NCBI GenBank assembly: GCA_949283375.1
Contig: CASDSM010000015.1
Span: 1-50,105 of the forward strand
Direction: 5' to 3'
From: an uncultured Eubacteriales bacterium
GTDB taxonomy: Bacteria > Bacillota > Clostridia > Oscillospirales > Oscillospiraceae
DNA: 50,105 nt
This document shows, in pieces, positions 35,857 through 43,014 of this stretch. The translations under genes were made by a program, and so were the position numbers. The notes under the pieces were generated by a model. The model was not told the DNA's origin. It did not search any database and was given only the letters and a program-made list of their open reading frames with translations. The number at the start of each line of letters is the position of its first letter. Position 1 is the stretch's first letter.

Positions 35857-37896
35857 TCAGGTGAGCTGGAACTGGCCGGTATAGAGCTGCCAGTAGCGGC
35901 CCTGGAGGGCGAGCAGCTCCTGATGGGAGCCTTTCTCAATGATCTGCCCCTGCTCGATGACGGCGATGCAGTTGGAGTTGCGCACGGTGGAGAGGCGGTG
36001 GGCAATGACGAAGACGGTGCGCCCCTTCATCAGCGCGTCCATCCCCCTGGAGATGAGCGCCTCCGTCCGGGTGTCGATGGAGCTGGTCGCCTCGTCGAGC
36101 ACCATGATGGGCGGGTCGGCCACCGCCGCGCGGGCGATGGCGAGGAGCTGGCGCTGCCCCTGGGAGAGGTTCGCCCCGTCGCCGGTGACCATCGTCTGAT
36201 AGCCGTCCGGCAGGCGGCGGATGAAGCTGTGGGCGTTGGCCGTCTTGGCCGCCTGAATGCACTCCTCATCCGTCGCGTCCAGCTTGCCGTAGCGGATGTT
36301 GTCCATCACGGTGCCGGTGAAGAGGTGGGTGTCCTGCAGCACGGCGCCCTGCGCCCCGCGCAGCGAGCGCTTGTCGATGTGGCGCACGTCCAGGCCGTCC
36401 ACCAGGATGAGGCCGTCCGAAATCTCATAGAAGCGGTTGATGAGGTTGGTCATCGTCGTTTTGCCCGCGCCGGTGGAGCCGACGAAGGCGATCTTCTGGC
36501 CGGGCTTGGCGTAGACGGTGACATGGTGGAGGACCTCCTTCTCCGGCACATAGCCGAAGTTGACATCGAGGAAGCGCACGTCCCCGCGCAGCTCCACCAG
36601 CTCATAGGCGTCCGCGCCCTCGCCGGCGATGGTACCCTCCGCCGGGCGGGTATAACGCCGGCCGTGCATGTCGGGCACATCCCACTCCCAGCCGTGGTCG
36701 GTCGGGTAGAGGCGGCCGCCCTCCACCTGGGTGGCCTTCCAGGCCCAGAGGCCGCTGCGCTCGCCGGCGGGCAGCTCCCGCAGGGTCCCGTCCGGGTTGC
36801 GCGCGACGCTCACGAGGGTGATCTTGCCGTTGTCCAGCTCGGGCTCGGTGTCCATCACCTCGAAGATGCGCTCCGCGCCCGCCATGGCGGAGAGGAGGTT
36901 GGTCATCTGCATGGAAATCTGGTTGAGCGGCTGGGCCACCTGGCGGGAGTAGTTCAGATAGCTCACCAGCCCGCCGAGGTCAAACCCCGCCAGAATGGCC
37001 AGCGCGCCGCCCGCCGCGGCGGTCAGGGCGTAGCCGATGTTGGAGAGGTTGCCCGCGATCGGCATGATGACGGTGGAGTAGAAGCTCGCCCGGGTGGCGG
37101 CGAAGCGGTAGTTCTCGTTGAGCCGGGCAAAGTCCGCGCGGGCCTGCTCCTCGTGGGTGAAGGCCTTGACCACCTTGAGCCCCTCGATGATCTCCTGGAT
37201 GTTGCCGTTCACCTCGCCGAGGGCCTTCTGCTGTTGGGCGTAGTACTCCCGGCTCCTGCCGCCCAGCCTGCCGAAGACCAGGACGGTGAGGGCCAGAATG
37301 ACCGCCGAGACGAGGAAGAGCACCGGGCTGAGGTAGAGCATCATCCCCACCGTGCCCACAAAGGTGATCACCGAGCTGATGAGCTGGACCACCGACTGCT
37401 CCAGCGCCATCTGCACGTTGTCCGCGTCGTTGGTGAAGCGGCTCATCAGCTCCCCATGGGGATGGCGGTCGAAGTAGCTCAGCGGCAGCTCCTGCAAATG
37501 GTCAAAGAGCTCCTTGCGCAGGGTGTTGCACCCCTTTTGCGCGAGCTGGGCCATCAGGTTGGCCTGGAGGTACATGCACACGGCCGAGATCGCGTAGATG
37601 CCCAGCAATTGCAGCACCGAGGCGAGCAGGCCGGGCAGGTCGCTCTGGCCCGCGAGGGCGGCCTGCTCGATGTTGTTGATGATCGGGCGCATCTGATACG
37701 TCGCCGCCACCGAGGAGACGGAGGCCGCCACGACGCAGAGCATGGCGATCACCAGCCGCAGCGGGCGCTTGGCGAGGTAGCCGAACATGCGCAGCATGGT
37801 CCGGCGCAGATGCTTGGGCTTCTGATAGCCGCCGCGTCCCCGTCCGCCGGGACCGCCGCCGTGTGGGCCGCTGCGGGGCGCTTGCTTCTCAGCCAT
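35857..37896 (-). CDS. ABC exporter half-transporter, second subunit
   Basis: Permease-ATPase fusion of the multidrug/lipid exporter type, acting as a dimer with the upstream gene product. Of 679 residues, a basic Gly/Arg-rich N-terminus precedes six helices (about 45-335). The ATPase has Walker A GSTGAGKTT, signature LSQGQRQLLAIARA and Walker B IMVLDEATSS. An insert of about 75 residues between permease and ATPase (near 345-420, containing RSGLWAWKATQVEGGRLY) is unusual in ABC exporters generally but recurs in this clostridial subgroup. The gene overlaps its partner by 8 nt, so the two are translationally coupled. Confidence 0.95.
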   Translation of the reverse strand: MAEKQAPRSGPHGGGPGGRGRGGYQKPKHLRRTMLRMFGYLAKRPLRLVIAMLCVVAASVSSVAATYQMRPIINNIEQAALAGQSDLPGLLASVLQLLGIYAISAVCMYLQANLMAQLAQKGCNTLRKELFDHLQELPLSYFDRHPHGELMSRFTNDADNVQMALEQSVVQLISSVITFVGTVGMMLYLSPVLFLVSAVILALTVLVFGRLGGRSREYYAQQQKALGEVNGNIQEIIEGLKVVKAFTHEEQARADFARLNENYRFAATRASFYSTVIMPIAGNLSNIGYALTAAAGGALAILAGFDLGGLVSYLNYSRQVAQPLNQISMQMTNLLSAMAGAERIFEVMDTEPELDNGKITLVSVARNPDGTLRELPAGERSGLWAWKATQVEGGRLYPTDHGWEWDVPDMHGRRYTRPAEGTIAGEGADAYELVELRGDVRFLDVNFGYVPEKEVLHHVTVYAKPGQKIAFVGSTGAGKTTMTNLINRFYEISDGLILVDGLDVRHIDKRSLRGAQGAVLQDTHLFTGTVMDNIRYGKLDATDEECIQAAKTANAHSFIRRLPDGYQTMVTGDGANLSQGQRQLLAIARAAVADPPIMVLDEATSSIDTRTEALISRGMDALMKGRTVFVIAHRLSTVRNSNCIAVIEQGQIIEKGSHQELLALQGRYWQLYTGQFQLT

Positions 37897-39634
37897 GCTC
37901 GCTCACTCCTTCCTGCTGGGACCAGTAGATCTCCTGATAGATGGCGTTGGAGGCCATCAGCTCGTCGTGCGTGCCCGCCCCGGCGATGGTGCCGTCATCC
38001 AGGACGATGATCTGGTCCGCCCCCATCACCGAGCTGATGCGCTGGGCGATCAGGATCACCGTCGTGTCCTTCAGGTTCTGATGGAAGGACTCACGGATAA
38101 GCGCCTCGGTCGCCGAGTCCACGGCGGAGGTGGAGTCGTCCAGGATGAGGACGGAGGGCTTGCGCAGCATCGCGCGGGCGATGCACAGTCTCTGCTTCTG
38201 CCCGCCGGAGACGTTCACGCCGCCCTGCTCCAGATAGGTGTCAAACCCGTCCGGGAAGGACATGATGAAGTCGTAGGCCTGCGCGTCCTTCGCGGCCTGA
38301 ATGATCTCCTCTTCTGTGGCCTCCGCGTCGCCCCAGAGGAGGTTTTCCCGGATGGTGCCGGAGAAGAGGACGTTCTTCTGCAGCACCATGCCGACCTTGT
38401 TGCGCAGGGTGTCGAGGGAGTAGTCGCGCACGTTCACCCCGTCCACCAGCACCTCGCCGGCGGTGACGTCGTAGAAGCGGGGGATCAGGTTCACCAGCGT
38501 GCTCTTGCCCACGCCGGTGCCGCCGACGATGGCGACCACCTGGCCGGGCTTGGCGGTGAAGCTGATGCCGTGCAGCACGTCGTCCCCCGTGCCGGAGGCG
38601 CTGTACTTGAAGGCCACGTCGCGGAACTCCACCTGTCCGCGCAGCGCGCGCACCCCCTGATGGCCGATGTCCTGCCCACTCTGGATGTCGGGCACGGCGT
38701 CGAGCACCTCAAAGACGCGCTTGGCGCAGGCCTCAGCGCGGGTGTACTGCAGCAGGGCCATGCCCACCATCATCACGGAGAAGAGGATGTTGAAGATGTA
38801 GTTGAGCAGGCTGGAGAGCTCGCCGATCTCCATCCCGCCCTGGAGGACGAGCACGCCGCCGTGGTAGAGGATGAGCACCGTTGCCGTGGAGACGCCCATC
38901 ATGAGCACCGGGCTCATCATCACCACGCGCAGCACGGCGGAGAGGCCGGCTTTCGTAAACTCGTCGTTGGCGGTGCGGAACTTCTCCCGCTCAAAATCCT
39001 GGCGGACGAAGGCCTTGACCACCCGCACGCCGATCAGATTCTCCTGGATGGTCTGGTTGAGCGCGTCCAGCTTGCGCTGCATCTTCTGAAAGAGGGGGTT
39101 GCAGATGCGCATGAGCGCAAACAGGGTGATCCCCACCACCGGCAGGACCACAAACACCCAGACCGCCAGCCCCGCGTTGATCCACAGGGCCACCCCCATC
39201 GCCATCACCATCATCACCAGCGCGCGCACCAGCATCCGCAGGCAGATAGCCACCACCATCTGGATGTTGGTCACGTCGTTCGTCATCCGGGTGATGAGGG
39301 AGGCGGAGGAGAAGCGGTCGATGTCGGCGAAGGAGAAGGTGCTGATCTTGTCAAACTCCGCCTTGCGCAGGCTCGCGCCCAGGCCCTGGGCCGCCTCGGC
39401 GGCGAAGCGGGCGGAGAAGATGCCGCAGCACATGGAAACCGTGGCCACCACCAGCATGGCCGCCCCGAGTTGGAGGATCACCGGCAGGTTGGACTGGGAG
39501 ATGCCGTCGTCGATGATGCCTGCCATCAGCAGGGGGAGGATCAGCTCGCAGACCGTCTCGAGCGCGACCAGGACGGGGGCGAGGACGGCCGCGCGCCCGT
39601 AGCCCTTCATGAATGGGAGCAGACGTTTGATCAC
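37889..39634 (-). CDS. ABC exporter half-transporter, first subunit
   Basis: Six-helix permease (about 10-300) fused to an ATPase with Walker A GGTGVGKSTLV, signature VSGGQKQRLCIARAML and Walker B LILDDSTSAVD. The Asp-Asp in place of Asp-Glu at the Walker B end means the catalytic glutamate is missing. Such a degenerate site is a hallmark of heterodimeric exporters in which only the other composite site hydrolyses ATP. The protein has 581 residues. It starts with GTG at 39634, overlapping the MarR stop codon (GTGA), after AAGGAAGG. Export of a drug or toxic metabolite sensed by the MarR protein is likely (inference). Confidence 0.95.
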   Translation of the reverse strand: MIKRLLPFMKGYGRAAVLAPVLVALETVCELILPLLMAGIIDDGISQSNLPVILQLGAAMLVVATVSMCCGIFSARFAAEAAQGLGASLRKAEFDKISTFSFADIDRFSSASLITRMTNDVTNIQMVVAICLRMLVRALVMMVMAMGVALWINAGLAVWVFVVLPVVGITLFALMRICNPLFQKMQRKLDALNQTIQENLIGVRVVKAFVRQDFEREKFRTANDEFTKAGLSAVLRVVMMSPVLMMGVSTATVLILYHGGVLVLQGGMEIGELSSLLNYIFNILFSVMMVGMALLQYTRAEACAKRVFEVLDAVPDIQSGQDIGHQGVRALRGQVEFRDVAFKYSASGTGDDVLHGISFTAKPGQVVAIVGGTGVGKSTLVNLIPRFYDVTAGEVLVDGVNVRDYSLDTLRNKVGMVLQKNVLFSGTIRENLLWGDAEATEEEIIQAAKDAQAYDFIMSFPDGFDTYLEQGGVNVSGGQKQRLCIARAMLRKPSVLILDDSTSAVDSATEALIRESFHQNLKDTTVILIAQRISSVMGADQIIVLDDGTIAGAGTHDELMASNAIYQEIYWSQQEGVSEHG

Positions 39635-40119
39635 ATGGGATCCCTTCCTTTCCGGCACGGCTCACCGGCCGCGCCGCCGATTTGATGCAGATTGTCCAGC
39701 ATACGCCGGTAATAGCCGCGCAGCGCCTCCAGCTCCCCGCCGGTGAAGCCGTCGTAGACCTGGCGCTCGATGCGCGTGAAGATCTCGATGCAGTGCGACC
39801 GGGCCGCGCGCCCCTTCTCGGTGAGGATGACGCGCTTCTTCCGCCCGTCCGCCGGGTCGGCGCGCCGGACGACATAGCCCAGCCGCTCAAGCGACTTGAG
39901 CGAGGCCGCCACCGTCGCCGGGGCGAGGCGGAGCTGCCCGGCGAGCTCCGACTGGGCGGGCGGCTCGCTCTCCTCCGCGAGGAGAAAGAGGATCTGCGGC
40001 TGGCCGACATCCTGCAGCCCCGCCTCCGTCAGCGCCGCAAACATCGCGCGCTGTCTGGCGTGCTGGACCTGGAAAAACAGGGAGATCGGGATCTCCGATT
40101 CCGGGGGAAAATGCCCCAT
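39631..40119 (-). CDS. MarR-family transcriptional regulator of the ABC operon
   Basis: Winged-helix dimeric repressor that typically releases DNA on binding a small aromatic or drug-like ligand. The 162 residues contain the HTH (SELAGQLRLAPATVAASLKS near 62-81) and the wing (RADPADGRKKRVILTEKG near 92-109). I take ATG 40119 after AAAGGAGG; the frame is open to 40191 without a site. First gene of the operon with the two exporter subunits. A 17-bp perfect palindrome just upstream is its probable operator. Confidence 0.94.
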   Translation of the reverse strand: MGHFPPESEIPISLFFQVQHARQRAMFAALTEAGLQDVGQPQILFLLAEESEPPAQSELAGQLRLAPATVAASLKSLERLGYVVRRADPADGRKKRVILTEKGRAARSHCIEIFTRIERQVYDGFTGGELEALRGYYRRMLDNLHQIGGAAGEPCRKGRDPM

Positions 40120-40139
40120 CCGACCGCCTCCTTTCGCAT

Positions 40140-40156
40140 CCGAACAAATTGTTCGG
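40140..40156. promoter_or_regulatory. 17-bp palindrome CCGAACAA-A-TTGTTCGG, probable MarR operator
   Basis: A perfect inverted repeat between the MarR transcription start and start codon. It also resembles a Firmicute LexA box (CGAAC-N4-GTTCG) but with a 5-nt centre, so MarR binding is the likelier reading. Confidence 0.65.
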
Positions 40157-40181
40157 GAGCTAACCATTCGTATGCTCATTA

Positions 40182-40210
40182 GTTTTACCACAGACTGCCT
40201 TCCCTGTCAA
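40182..40210 (-). promoter_or_regulatory. promoter of the MarR-ABC operon
   Basis: Minus strand TTGACA (40205-40210), 17 nt, TAAAAC (40182-40187) with TGG before it. Confidence 0.7.
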
Positions 40211-40309: not shown

Positions 40310-40912
40310 ATGAGAACAGAAAAAGAGCTGACGCCCAAGCAGCAGCGCATCTATGACTATATTGTGGACTTCACCGCCCGGAACGGCTATCCCCCCTCCG
40401 TGCGGGAGATTGCCGCGGCGGTGGGGCTCAAGAGCCCCTCCACCGTCCACTTTCACCTCAAGGCCCTGGAGGAGGCGGGGGCCATCGTCCGCGGCAGCGG
40501 CAAGACCCGCGCCATCACCGCCGAGGAGCCCGCCCAGCCGCGGCCCAACCTGGTGCCCCTGGTCGGCAACGTCGCCGCCGGCAGCCCCATCCTCGCCGAC
40601 GAGTGCGTGGAGGACTATCTCCCCTTTGACACCGGCGGGCGGACGGGCGAGCACTTCGCCCTGCGCATCCGGGGCGAGAGCATGATCCGCGCGGGCATCC
40701 TGCCGGGCGACTTCGTCATCGTCCACCAGCAGGAGACGGCCAACAACGGCGAGATCGTCGTCGCCCTGCTCGGGGAGGAGGCCACCTGCAAGCGCCTGCG
40801 CCGGCGCGGCGGAGAGACCTGGCTCCTGCCGGAAAACGAGAGCTATCAGCCCATCGACGGCCGCGAGGCGCGCATCCTCGGCCGGGTGGTGGGAGTCGTG
40901 CGGCACTACTGA
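40310..40912 (+). CDS. lexA: LexA repressor
   Basis: SOS regulator that cleaves itself when RecA filaments form. The 200 residues comprise an N-terminal winged helix (LTPKQQRIYDYIVDFTARNG; SVREIAAAVGLKSPSTVHFH) and a C-terminal S24 peptidase. The latter has cleavage site Ala90-Gly91 in NVAAGSPI, nucleophile Ser124 in GESMIRAG and Lys161 in ATCKRL. GGGAGG lies before the ATG. It is divergent from the MarR operon and autoregulated through the box at 40238. The next promoter begins only 50 bp after its stop, with no separate GC-rich terminator between. Confidence 0.97.
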   Translation: MRTEKELTPKQQRIYDYIVDFTARNGYPPSVREIAAAVGLKSPSTVHFHLKALEEAGAIVRGSGKTRAITAEEPAQPRPNLVPLVGNVAAGSPILADECVEDYLPFDTGGRTGEHFALRIRGESMIRAGILPGDFVIVHQQETANNGEIVVALLGEEATCKRLRRRGGETWLLPENESYQPIDGREARILGRVVGVVRHY

Positions 40913-40961
40913 GGGTCCGGCGCAGTCGAAAAAAGTTTTTGAAAAAACTTTGAAAAAGTGC

Positions 40962-40990
40962 TTGACATTCTGAGCGGCCTGTGCTATTAT
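40962..40990 (+). promoter_or_regulatory. very strong promoter with upstream A-tracts, driving an ORF-free region
   Basis: TTGACA (40962-40967), exactly 17 nt, TATTAT (40985-40990). Upstream lies a phased A/T tract (GAAAAAAGTTTTTG, AAAAAACTTTG, AAAAAGTG), like the UP elements of rRNA promoters. It is among the best promoters in the window. Confidence 0.85.
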
Positions 40991-42268
40991 TAATTCACGG
41001 AACAGAGAAGACCTTCTTCCCCAGGAACCCTCTTCTTCTCCGCACAACAGGAAGCTCAGACCTCCCGAAAAAAGACATCTCTTCCTGAAAAAGAGAATCA
41101 TTTCTCTCTCAAAAGGAAAGAGAGAGGTCAAAAAGGGAAAGGAGAGCTTTCAGTCTCCCAAAAGAGAGCAGGACAGGACGAATTCAGCACCGGAACACCA
41201 AAAACCAATTTCCAAAGACAGAGCAGAGAACTTCCCCCACTTCCCAAAAGAAATGGATTTCTGAAAAGAGAAAAATTTCAAGTCAGGAAAAGCAAAACTC
41301 TCTCAGAAAAAGGAACATTGGACCTCCCTCCCAAAGACAAATTTCATCACCCATCCGGATCAAAAAGAAAATCATTTCAGAAAACGCAACCGAAAAGACA
41401 GATTTTTCCCAGGTCGGGAACAGAGAGACCATTTCAAAGAACAGAAAAGCCAATTCCAGAACATCAGGAGCACATCACTCCGATGATTCAGAAAAAGCAA
41501 TTCCTTCTGAGAAACCGTCATCTGATCAGGCGTCAAGTTCAGAGCGCATCCGAAAATGATTTTCTCCAAGAAAAGGATAAAAGATGAAATCTCTGTCGGA
41601 ATCGGAAAATGTGTTCTGAAATCTGAAATTCCAAACTATTCCTCTCCAAAGGAGCAAATCCCAGACGGAAGACAGACGGAACAGATCTCCCTTTCTGAAA
41701 CATCCAACGCTCAAAACAGGACGAGAAAAACCGCCAGAACTCCCGATGCAGGGCATCTGAGAGCAATGGAAGCAGATTTTTCCCCTGGACAAGTGAGACG
41801 CGATCAACCGGATAAGGAAGGAAATCGCCGAATAACTTCCCCAAAGGACTGTGCGTAGAGAAAGAACCACCGTGCATGTTCCAGGAAACAGGAATCCTTC
41901 TCTGAACCACCGGGCGGAACCGGATCAGCAACGTCAGTGAACTTTTTCCGGCTTTTCCAAGCAAGCACAGCAGCATACCCAAAGCAACACCGGCAGATAT
42001 CCCAGAAGATGCAGACAGATGCATGACACACAGAGGTCATGAAAATCCCAGGCAAAAAAGGCGATATCAGCAAGTCAGCAGATAGCATGCAAGACCAATC
42101 GGAACCGCAAGCTATCAGCCAAAGGGGGCAGCCAACAAACACATGCAGGTAACAGTCACAAAGGAACCGCACCGCTGATCCGGTTCTGCCGTCAGGATCT
42201 TCCGTTTCACCGATAAAACTGCGTGATAGATCCGAACACCAAAATTTCATAAAAGGAGGCCCGGTAAC

Positions 42269-42298
42269 ATGCTGGACCTGAAAAGGAACCGGAAGTGA
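42269..42298 (+). CDS. possible 9-codon leader peptide before the terminator
   Basis: ATG at 42269 has AAAAGGAGG 9 nt upstream and encodes MLDLKRNRK, stopping inside the left arm of the terminator stem. The best ribosome binding site of the whole region thus serves a tiny frame. It could be a leader peptide, a decayed gene start, or chance. Confidence 0.25.
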   Translation: MLDLKRNRK

Positions 42299-42340
42299 CC
42301 TGTATCTGCGACACGCAGGGATACAGGTCACTTCCATTTT
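42291..42340. terminator. strong hairpin terminating the 40.99-42.34 kb transcript
   Basis: A 16-bp perfect stem (GGAAGTGACCTGTATC and its complement) is capped by a second CTGCG/CGCAG stem, followed by ATTTT. It also lies just past the stop of the convergent HAD gene and may serve both. Confidence 0.85.
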
Positions 42341-42357
42341 GCGCGCGCAGCGCCGCC

Positions 42358-43014
42358 TCAGCATGTCCGGGCGAGAAAGGCGCCGAGCGCGTCCAGGTCG
42401 GGGGCGATGCAGACGGTGGGCCAGCCGGCGAAGGCCTCTGCCGGGGTGGTGCCGTTGAGCACGGCGGCGAAGTCGATGCCGGCGCGCTGGGCGGTCTCGG
42501 CGTCTATGACGGTGTCCCCGGCAAAGAGGGCCCCGGACGGCGCGCACCCGGCCTTTTCCAGCGCGAGCAGGGCGGCGTCCGGCGCGGGCTTATAGCGCGC
42601 CACGTCACCGCCACCGATGCAGAAGGCGACGCGGTCCGCCAGCCCCTGCCGCGCGAGCACCTGCTCGATCACCGTGCGCCGCTTTGTGCTCACGATGGCG
42701 GCGAGGATGCCCCTCGCGTGCAGCCAGTCCAGCAGCTCCGCCGCGCCGGGGAAGAGCCGGGTCCCCTCCACTTGGATGGGGTTGGCCACGGCGACATAGA
42801 GACTGCGAAAGAGCGCCTGCCGCGCGGGATCGGTCTCCCCGGTGAGGCGGGTGAAGGCGTTCTCCAGCGTCATGCCGATGGTCGCGCGCACCGCCTCCCG
42901 TCCCGGCCGGGGCAGGCCCATCCGGGCAAAGGCGGTCTCGAAGCCGAGCACAATGCAATCGGTCGCGTCCCCCAGGGTGTAGTCAAAATCAAAAAATACC
43001 GCGCGGTAGGCCAT
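42358..43014 (-). CDS. HAD-superfamily phosphatase (phosphoglycolate phosphatase-like)
   Basis: Cytoplasmic phosphohydrolase of HAD subfamily IA. The 218 residues have motif I DFDYTLGD (Asp9 nucleophile, Asp11), a helical cap, motif II STKRR near 109, the lysine in RYKPAPD near 141, and motif IV FAGDTVIDAE near 164. The overall match is to phosphoglycolate phosphatase/beta-phosphoglucomutase relatives; the substrate is not determined. The motif II serine is followed by a basic KRR. GGAGCG lies weakly before the ATG. It has its own good promoter. Confidence 0.92.
   Translation of the reverse strand: MAYRAVFFDFDYTLGDATDCIVLGFETAFARMGLPRPGREAVRATIGMTLENAFTRLTGETDPARQALFRSLYVAVANPIQVEGTRLFPGAAELLDWLHARGILAAIVSTKRRTVIEQVLARQGLADRVAFCIGGGDVARYKPAPDAALLALEKAGCAPSGALFAGDTVIDAETAQRAGIDFAAVLNGTTPAEAFAGWPTVCIAPDLDALGAFLARTC

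Follow-up and report, generated by a model that had tools for sequence, protein, structure and literature searches.

A widespread family of putative free-standing RNA genes of gut Clostridia in which the stop codon of a micro-ORF is paired within the terminator

In the present study, we found that the approximately 1.35-kb unit between lexA and a convergent HAD-family gene in the window (the whole stretch of 50,105 nt of contig CASDSM010000015.1 that was analyzed) is, judging from its sequence, one copy of a widespread family of free-standing RNA genes of gut Clostridia. The upstream neighbor lexA (40310-40912) was identified by its Pfam LexA domains, and the HAD-family gene (42358-43014), which is convergent to the RNA unit, also by Pfam. 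The family plan comprises a strong promoter, often a Shine-Dalgarno sequence (SD1) with a first micro-ORF of two or three codons (ORF1), a spacer of any length, a second Shine-Dalgarno sequence (SD2) with a micro-ORF of 8-10 codons (ORF2), a terminator (T1) and, in somewhat more than half of the members, a second terminator (T2). The copy in the window has SD2 and an ORF of this length with its stop codon paired in T1, by which the family is defined; it is without ORF1, has a spacer of 1.2 kb and shows no visible T2. Mini-ORFs, intrinsic terminators and an attenuator-like overlap of the two are known parts. What appears, as far as can be told, to be new is a family of free-standing RNAs whose design rests on a terminator that locks the RNA's stop codon, and no recognizable description of it was found in the literature searched, which covered few subscription journals.

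The most conserved part of the unit lies at its 3' end. A strong Shine-Dalgarno sequence, AGGAGG (42254-42259, plus strand), is followed by ORF2 (42269-42298, plus strand), which reads ATG CTG GAC CTG AAA AGG AAC CGG AAG TGA and encodes MLDLKRNRK; its frame and length are the same in relatives, with synonymous changes within the genus. The UGA stop codon (42296-42298, plus strand) forms part of the paired 5' arm of T1 (42291-42340, plus strand), which consists of a 16-bp stem (42291-42306/42320-42335), a 13-nt loop and TTTT at 42337-42340. The sequence-only reading had correctly noted a 16-bp terminal hairpin with a T-containing tail; its description of the unit as free of ORFs has to be withdrawn, because the conserved nine-codon ORF with its Shine-Dalgarno sequence ends inside this very stem. 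A scan for consensus terminators omits T1 because the 13-nt loop exceeds the limit of 8 nt in the scan. In 164 of 168 distinct members, the pairing includes every base of the stop codon, and the pairing partners covary with the stop codon: UGA pairs with UCA in 105 members, UAA with UUA in 37 and UAG with CUA in five, the remaining fully paired members being G-U variants. The stop codon was located in a long stem in 117 of 121 ORF2s, as against 14 of 586 other ORFs of the same loci. In an alignment of 26 sequences, two-sided changes were observed at 17 of the 18 consensus stem pairs of T1. At one locus (L203, genome G189), the stop codon of ORF2 is lost and, by reading, the pairing of the hairpin is apparently kept.

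Our best guess, to which we give somewhat less than even confidence, is that the gene produces a free-standing RNA and that ribosomes on the micro-ORFs may govern both where its 3' end falls and how stable it is. Ribosomes entering at SD2 would read some nine codons and could reach the stop codon only by opening T1; T1 would form and terminate transcription only while ORF2 is not translated, and T2 would catch the polymerases let through by T1. A ribosome at SD1 would shield the 5' end, another at SD2 would sit just upstream of the 3' hairpin, and ribosome availability would be reflected in the level, the 3' end and the lifetime of the RNA. A 5' Shine-Dalgarno sequence with a mini-ORF has been reported to protect an mRNA in the case of an E. 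coli operon leader (PMC8708949), a precedent for the proposed protection of the 5' end by SD1 and ORF1. As T1 and T2 are close to each other and read-through adds only about 45 nt, the output of such a switch would be hard to see; the lack of T2 in 49 of 114 copies and in the window copy, that of ORF1 in the window copy, L181 and others, the lost stop codon of L203 and the patchy occurrence within the order also speak against this reading. Given the covarying stop codon, gating of termination by translation can be tested directly. A more far-reaching possibility, which we put forward as a tentative suggestion that is rather less than probable, is that the family represents a previously undescribed class of RNA genes fusing translation and termination, namely a stand-alone sensor of translation capacity, in which ribosome supply would set the end and the lifetime of the RNA.

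A second canonical terminator on the same strand, T2, is located not more than 110 nt on in 65 of 114 copies, with a median start 21 nt after T1; it is absent in the other 49. With slightly different criteria, T2 was found in 47 of 92 members, compared with 8 of 208 stretches 60-160 nt after other ORFs, a control that represents stretches behind other ORFs and not behind other terminators. Of the 114 members, 23 have an opposite-strand terminator at a distance of up to 200 nt. A micro-ORF overlapping an intrinsic terminator, as found here, is the classical attenuator layout, and together with the tandem terminators it may suggest that the unit is a leader-peptide attenuator, or the remnant of one, for the next gene. 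Leader-peptide attenuators of the trp, erm and bmr type share with this family a short ORF, led by a Shine-Dalgarno sequence, whose translation would melt an overlapping terminator. However, the RNA family is free-standing, has no regulated gene downstream, and often has T2 as well as an ORF1 of two or three codons. A next ORF was present in 91 of 92 members examined, with 52 of these ORFs reading against the RNA and 39 in its direction, and the gene that follows the unit in the window is convergent with it; a co-directional regulated gene is thus not a regular feature of the downstream side. A shared neighbor family, including a protein partner next door, was sought at 80 of at least 117 loci and none was found, the largest cluster comprising six loci. 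Since the neighbors are not shared, the RNA is probably not a leader, and we consider attenuation of a next gene to be very unlikely. As a separate observation, three loci (L042 and L045, in genomes G009 and G006, and L118, in G001) contain RNAs with tandem micro-ORF units, in which an ORF such as MKLDFKSAIK is closed by a short GCGUUA/UAACGC stem that pairs the stop codon, or by the variant GUGUUA/UAACAC, and is then followed by AGGAGG and a three-codon ORF.

At the 5' end, the unit has a sigma-70 promoter, TTGACA-17-TATTAT (40962-40990, plus strand), with the -35 box at 40962-40967, the -10 box at 40985-40990 (both plus strand) and TG before the latter. It has 11 of 12 consensus bases with 17-nt spacing, is kept in the lexA-linked relatives, and is the only promoter-like site between 40800 and 42500, where shuffled sequences have 0.6 on average. 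Upstream of the -35 box, three A-tracts (40929-40934, 40942-40947 and 40953-40957), which read as UP-element-like, extend over 40929-40957 on the plus strand. Both the near-consensus promoter and the preceding A-tracts had been reported in the sequence-only reading, and both were confirmed. Comparable A-tracts are present upstream of the promoters of relatives; as they also precede a tRNA promoter (L049), they are a general feature of strong promoters. In the predicted 5' end of the transcript (40997-41110, plus strand), no Shine-Dalgarno sequence with ATG was found, and the copy in the window is thus without a 5' micro-ORF, unlike many relatives; the first block of the unit is identical to that of the closest copy, in genome G010, at 52 of 75 positions.

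Outside the genus, a sequence reading AGAAAGGGTGATACCAATG TAC AGG TAA, or nearly so, comes after the -10 box of many members; it carries ORF1, which there has two or three codons, with the products MYR, MNR, MYK, MF or MI. With a strict 5' motif that was chosen blind to the ORF and proved to be present in 55 of the 126 core matches, four codons or fewer were counted in 52 of 54 ORF1s, as against 88 of 427 for ATGs of the spacer. In the genus of the window, ORF1 either has more codons, as in MWREAAFR (C32 copy of the source genome) and MYRKYTDG, or is gone, and it is missing from the window copy, L181 and others. Minigenes and mini-ORFs such as axe-txe mg2 and the six-codon ORF of EHEC LEE4, for which protection against RNase by the bound ribosome was reported (PMC8708949), resemble the family in having an ORF of two to six codons behind a strong Shine-Dalgarno sequence in a leader. 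Those examples lie in leaders of protein operons, whereas the RNA family is without a protein gene and ends in a second ORF of about nine codons. The relatives contain an ORF of two to six codons with a Shine-Dalgarno sequence in the form of ORF1; in the window copy none was found, the sole short ORF with a Shine-Dalgarno sequence being of nine codons. Minigenes are also reported to deplete tRNA as peptidyl-tRNA (PMC8708949), and this precedent, the near-consensus promoter and the two or three codons of ORF1 would all fit an abundant RNA acting as a sink for ribosomes, tRNA or an initiation factor through futile, minigene-like initiation and termination on short ORFs. However, each genome has only one to four copies, ORF1 is absent in some of them, and the sequence constraints on ORF2 would be needless for a plain sink, so that we regard this explanation as rather unlikely.

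The product of ORF2 in most of the matches of the order is (M)MLDxKxxxK, with 8-10 amino acids, and four residues separate the L-D-x-K motif from the stop codon in 113 of 123 ORF2s. With a search pattern that did not require a stop codon, 122 of 126 core matches stop within 14 codons, the exceptions being L236, L275, L290 (15 codons) and L299 (contig end). L275, with a synthetase-like start, and L236, with a reductase-like start (both named by reading the translation), are false positives of the pattern. The MLDIK sequence had raised the suspicion that ORF2 is the start of seryl-tRNA synthetase, and this was ruled out by the constant stop codon and the terminator. Within the genus, 31 distinct ORF2s were gathered by a pattern that fixes Asp and Lys and leaves Leu and the codons free; they contain all six Leu codons (in 27 of the 31), GAC in nine and GAT in 22, and AAA in 15 and AAG in 16. 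Such synonymous changes at conserved residues are what would be expected of a coding sequence. They would suit a micropeptide mRNA, in which the product of 8-10 amino acids acts in trans and ORF1, T1 and T2 serve stability and termination, and the near-constant length of ORF2 and the several paralogues per genome are also consistent with it. In some lineages, however, the peptide is swapped (MKLQIDSEQK, MVEPKEAR, MKLEIEHFQN and MIEPKSFGK) with the length and the locked stop codon kept, and the paired stop codon itself would be left unexplained; we therefore find a micropeptide acting in trans possible but doubtful. D-x-K is absent from ORF2 of L200 and L214. Altogether, the short frame of ORF2 appears to be constant and its peptide only partly so.

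The wobble bases of ORF2 are nearly fixed in 37 transcripts found by covariance models (GAT in 37 of 37 and AAG in 36 of 37), all but one of which (L181) are from outside the genus. The set behind this count consisted of 38 such transcripts and six added by hand; the latter were excluded, as was one without a short ORF. Covariance-model hits outside that set were L199, L206, L212 and L214, to which no promoter was assigned, and L200, which was set aside. The near-fixed bases outside the genus seem to point to a demand at the level of RNA or codons that ribosome-gated termination would not explain, and none of the ribosome-gated, micropeptide and sink readings appears to accommodate them well.

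Between the two ends, the unit consists of an A-rich, T-poor, apparently non-coding spacer (41111-42250, plus strand), recognized by its composition and by its divergence from G010 and expanded in this copy. A recount of 41161-41220 gave A28 C15 G12 T5, exactly as had been claimed, and the composition is indeed unlike the surroundings: 41000-42250 has a GC content of 0.46 and an AT skew of +0.37, and outside the unit no stretch of 1251 nt has a GC content below 0.57 or an absolute skew above 0.26. The motifs that had been called recurring are weak, TCAGAAAA occurring three times and CTGAAAAG and CCAATTTCC once each in 41000-42250; repeated 8-mers are in excess there (75, compared with 46 +/- 8 in shuffles), without a clear repeat unit. 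Alignment of the unit with G010 gave 61% identity in 1285 aligned columns and 28 gap runs, the first and last blocks being better kept than the middle, and fourfold-degenerate sites of lexA in the same pair are identical at 68 of 99 positions (69%). None of the six long chance ORFs of the unit had a Pfam match at E 0.01, and only 6 of the 28 gap runs have a length divisible by three, by which a frameshifted foreign gene was rejected. The spacer varies from about 14 nt (L329) to about 1.2 kb (the window copy), the whole length was 234-747 nt in 42 of 44 members measured, and 28 of the 44 have a skew above 0.2 in favor of A over T. Middles of some shorter members are stable (z < -1.5 in 18 of 42, with 25 shuffles each); when a consensus fold was computed for each of two small groups of relatives, hardly any structure proved to be conserved other than at the ends. 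In a C32-type copy (L113, G012:C10), an A-rich, T-poor insertion of its own, like that of the window copy, was observed between the two micro-ORFs.

The range in length from 14 nt to 1.2 kb and the near-neutral divergence indicate that the middle is a poorly conserved spacer and not an OLE-like RNA. As it is the two ends that are conserved, above all the micro-ORF, the A/C bias would mark this spacer; the many short stems or protein-binding repeats that the bias had been taken to suggest were not borne out. The unit had been interpreted as a large ncRNA of the OLE, GOLLD or ROOL kind, and of this interpretation the conserved RNA gene with a strong promoter and without an Rfam family stands. 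The size, the promoter and the lack of long ORFs in the window copy agree with the other part, a large structured RNA; however, Rfam gave no hit, the body diverges near-neutrally and is nearly absent in some relatives, and a conserved, covarying body of about 1 kb was not seen in the two copies of the long form that were compared. With OLE, GOLLD and ROOL the family shares only the length of the window copy and a strong promoter; in contrast to them, it has no conserved body structure that could be demonstrated, and its members are mostly far shorter, as given above. We thus consider a large structured RNA highly improbable. Dual-function small RNAs such as SgrS, SR1 and RNAIII are also free-standing RNAs carrying an ORF; their ORFs specify proteins tens of residues long, and their regions for base pairing are conserved, whereas the present family has 8-10 codons, a stop codon in the terminator and an unconserved body. 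The shortest case, L329, is a whole RNA of about 145 nt with two micro-ORFs, which is below the reach of the usual gene callers. The case also warns that a long transcript that seems free of ORFs can arise when a spacer expands around a very small conserved device.

A DNA search of 59 genomes for conservation of the unit gave matches in 23, many of which are to the A-tract promoter only. In several congeners the match covers roughly the initial 100 nt together with the final 80-130 nt; G010 alone matches over most of the unit's length. The lexA-type element is present in eight further genomes of the genus; it follows lexA in seven of them and lies at the end of a contig in G008, and the units measure about 0.5, 0.8 and 1.4 kb. 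In L034, L035, L037, L038 and L039, the distance from the end of lexA to the A-tract is about 475 nt, compared with about 20 nt in the window. Congeners also have a like promoter before units of 200-600 nt elsewhere, which end in a Shine-Dalgarno sequence, a short ORF and a terminator; in L036, L046 and L047, a copy lies before what reads as an smpB gene, and a tmRNA gene is present on the L046 locus.

The family was then searched by a codon pattern and by two covariance models of the 3' module, R1 and R2. The window copy scored E 1.1e-11 with R1 and E 1.3e-6 with R2, its sequence being in both training sets, and the source genome has three copies of the module (C15, C32 and C12). Within the genus, the module was found in 32 of 32 genomes sampled, with one to four copies each, and the RNA gene occurs in many other Clostridia as well, without an Rfam match. 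Seven genomes of the genus have one weak match only (E up to 3.6e-4); five of these were read, and all have a Shine-Dalgarno sequence, a 10-codon ORF and a locked stop codon. In the order, 54 of 295 genomes matched at E 0.01 or better and 43 at E <2e-4, the latter including a match in G105 (1.6e-4) that looks doubtful; among the 75 matches, 11 (in 11 genomes) have E >=9.7e-4 and may be due to chance. In the family of the window, outside its genus, four other genomes matched in this search, one of them weakly, and the distribution within the order is patchy. The class gave 16 of 391 genomes, the source genome included, and a phylum-wide draw of 299 genomes gave the source genome only, with none of the 298 others; covariance-model searches over 40 genomes used stricter filters, by which weak matches are lost.

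A pattern scan of named genomes yielded at least 117 stretches. Because this pattern fixes Leu, Asp and Lys, it is no test of their conservation, for which the modules of the genus and the transcripts found by covariance models were used. The 80 matches listed are mostly from Oscillospiraceae, Ruminococcaceae, and Clostridia or Clostridiales MAGs, three being named Faecousia, and the one named isolate among them (L236) is the false positive mentioned above. With a strict pattern, no match was found in viral contigs, and a phage origin was rejected. In the 50,105-nt stretch, neither tRNA nor tmRNA was found, and a search of 4227 Rfam families at covariance-model cut-offs gave no match. Twenty loci of relatives gave Rfam matches to tRNA, tmRNA and riboswitches only, and a permissive scan of eight loci gave two tRNAs, the rest being far below the cut-off and mostly microRNA models on the hairpin. 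Elsewhere in the window, a MarR-family gene (Pfam) precedes two large minus-strand ORFs that read as ABC exporters (35857-40191). Double copies on one contig, in tandem or a few kilobases apart, were observed at L187, L197/L238, L204, L249, L266, L270 and L282.
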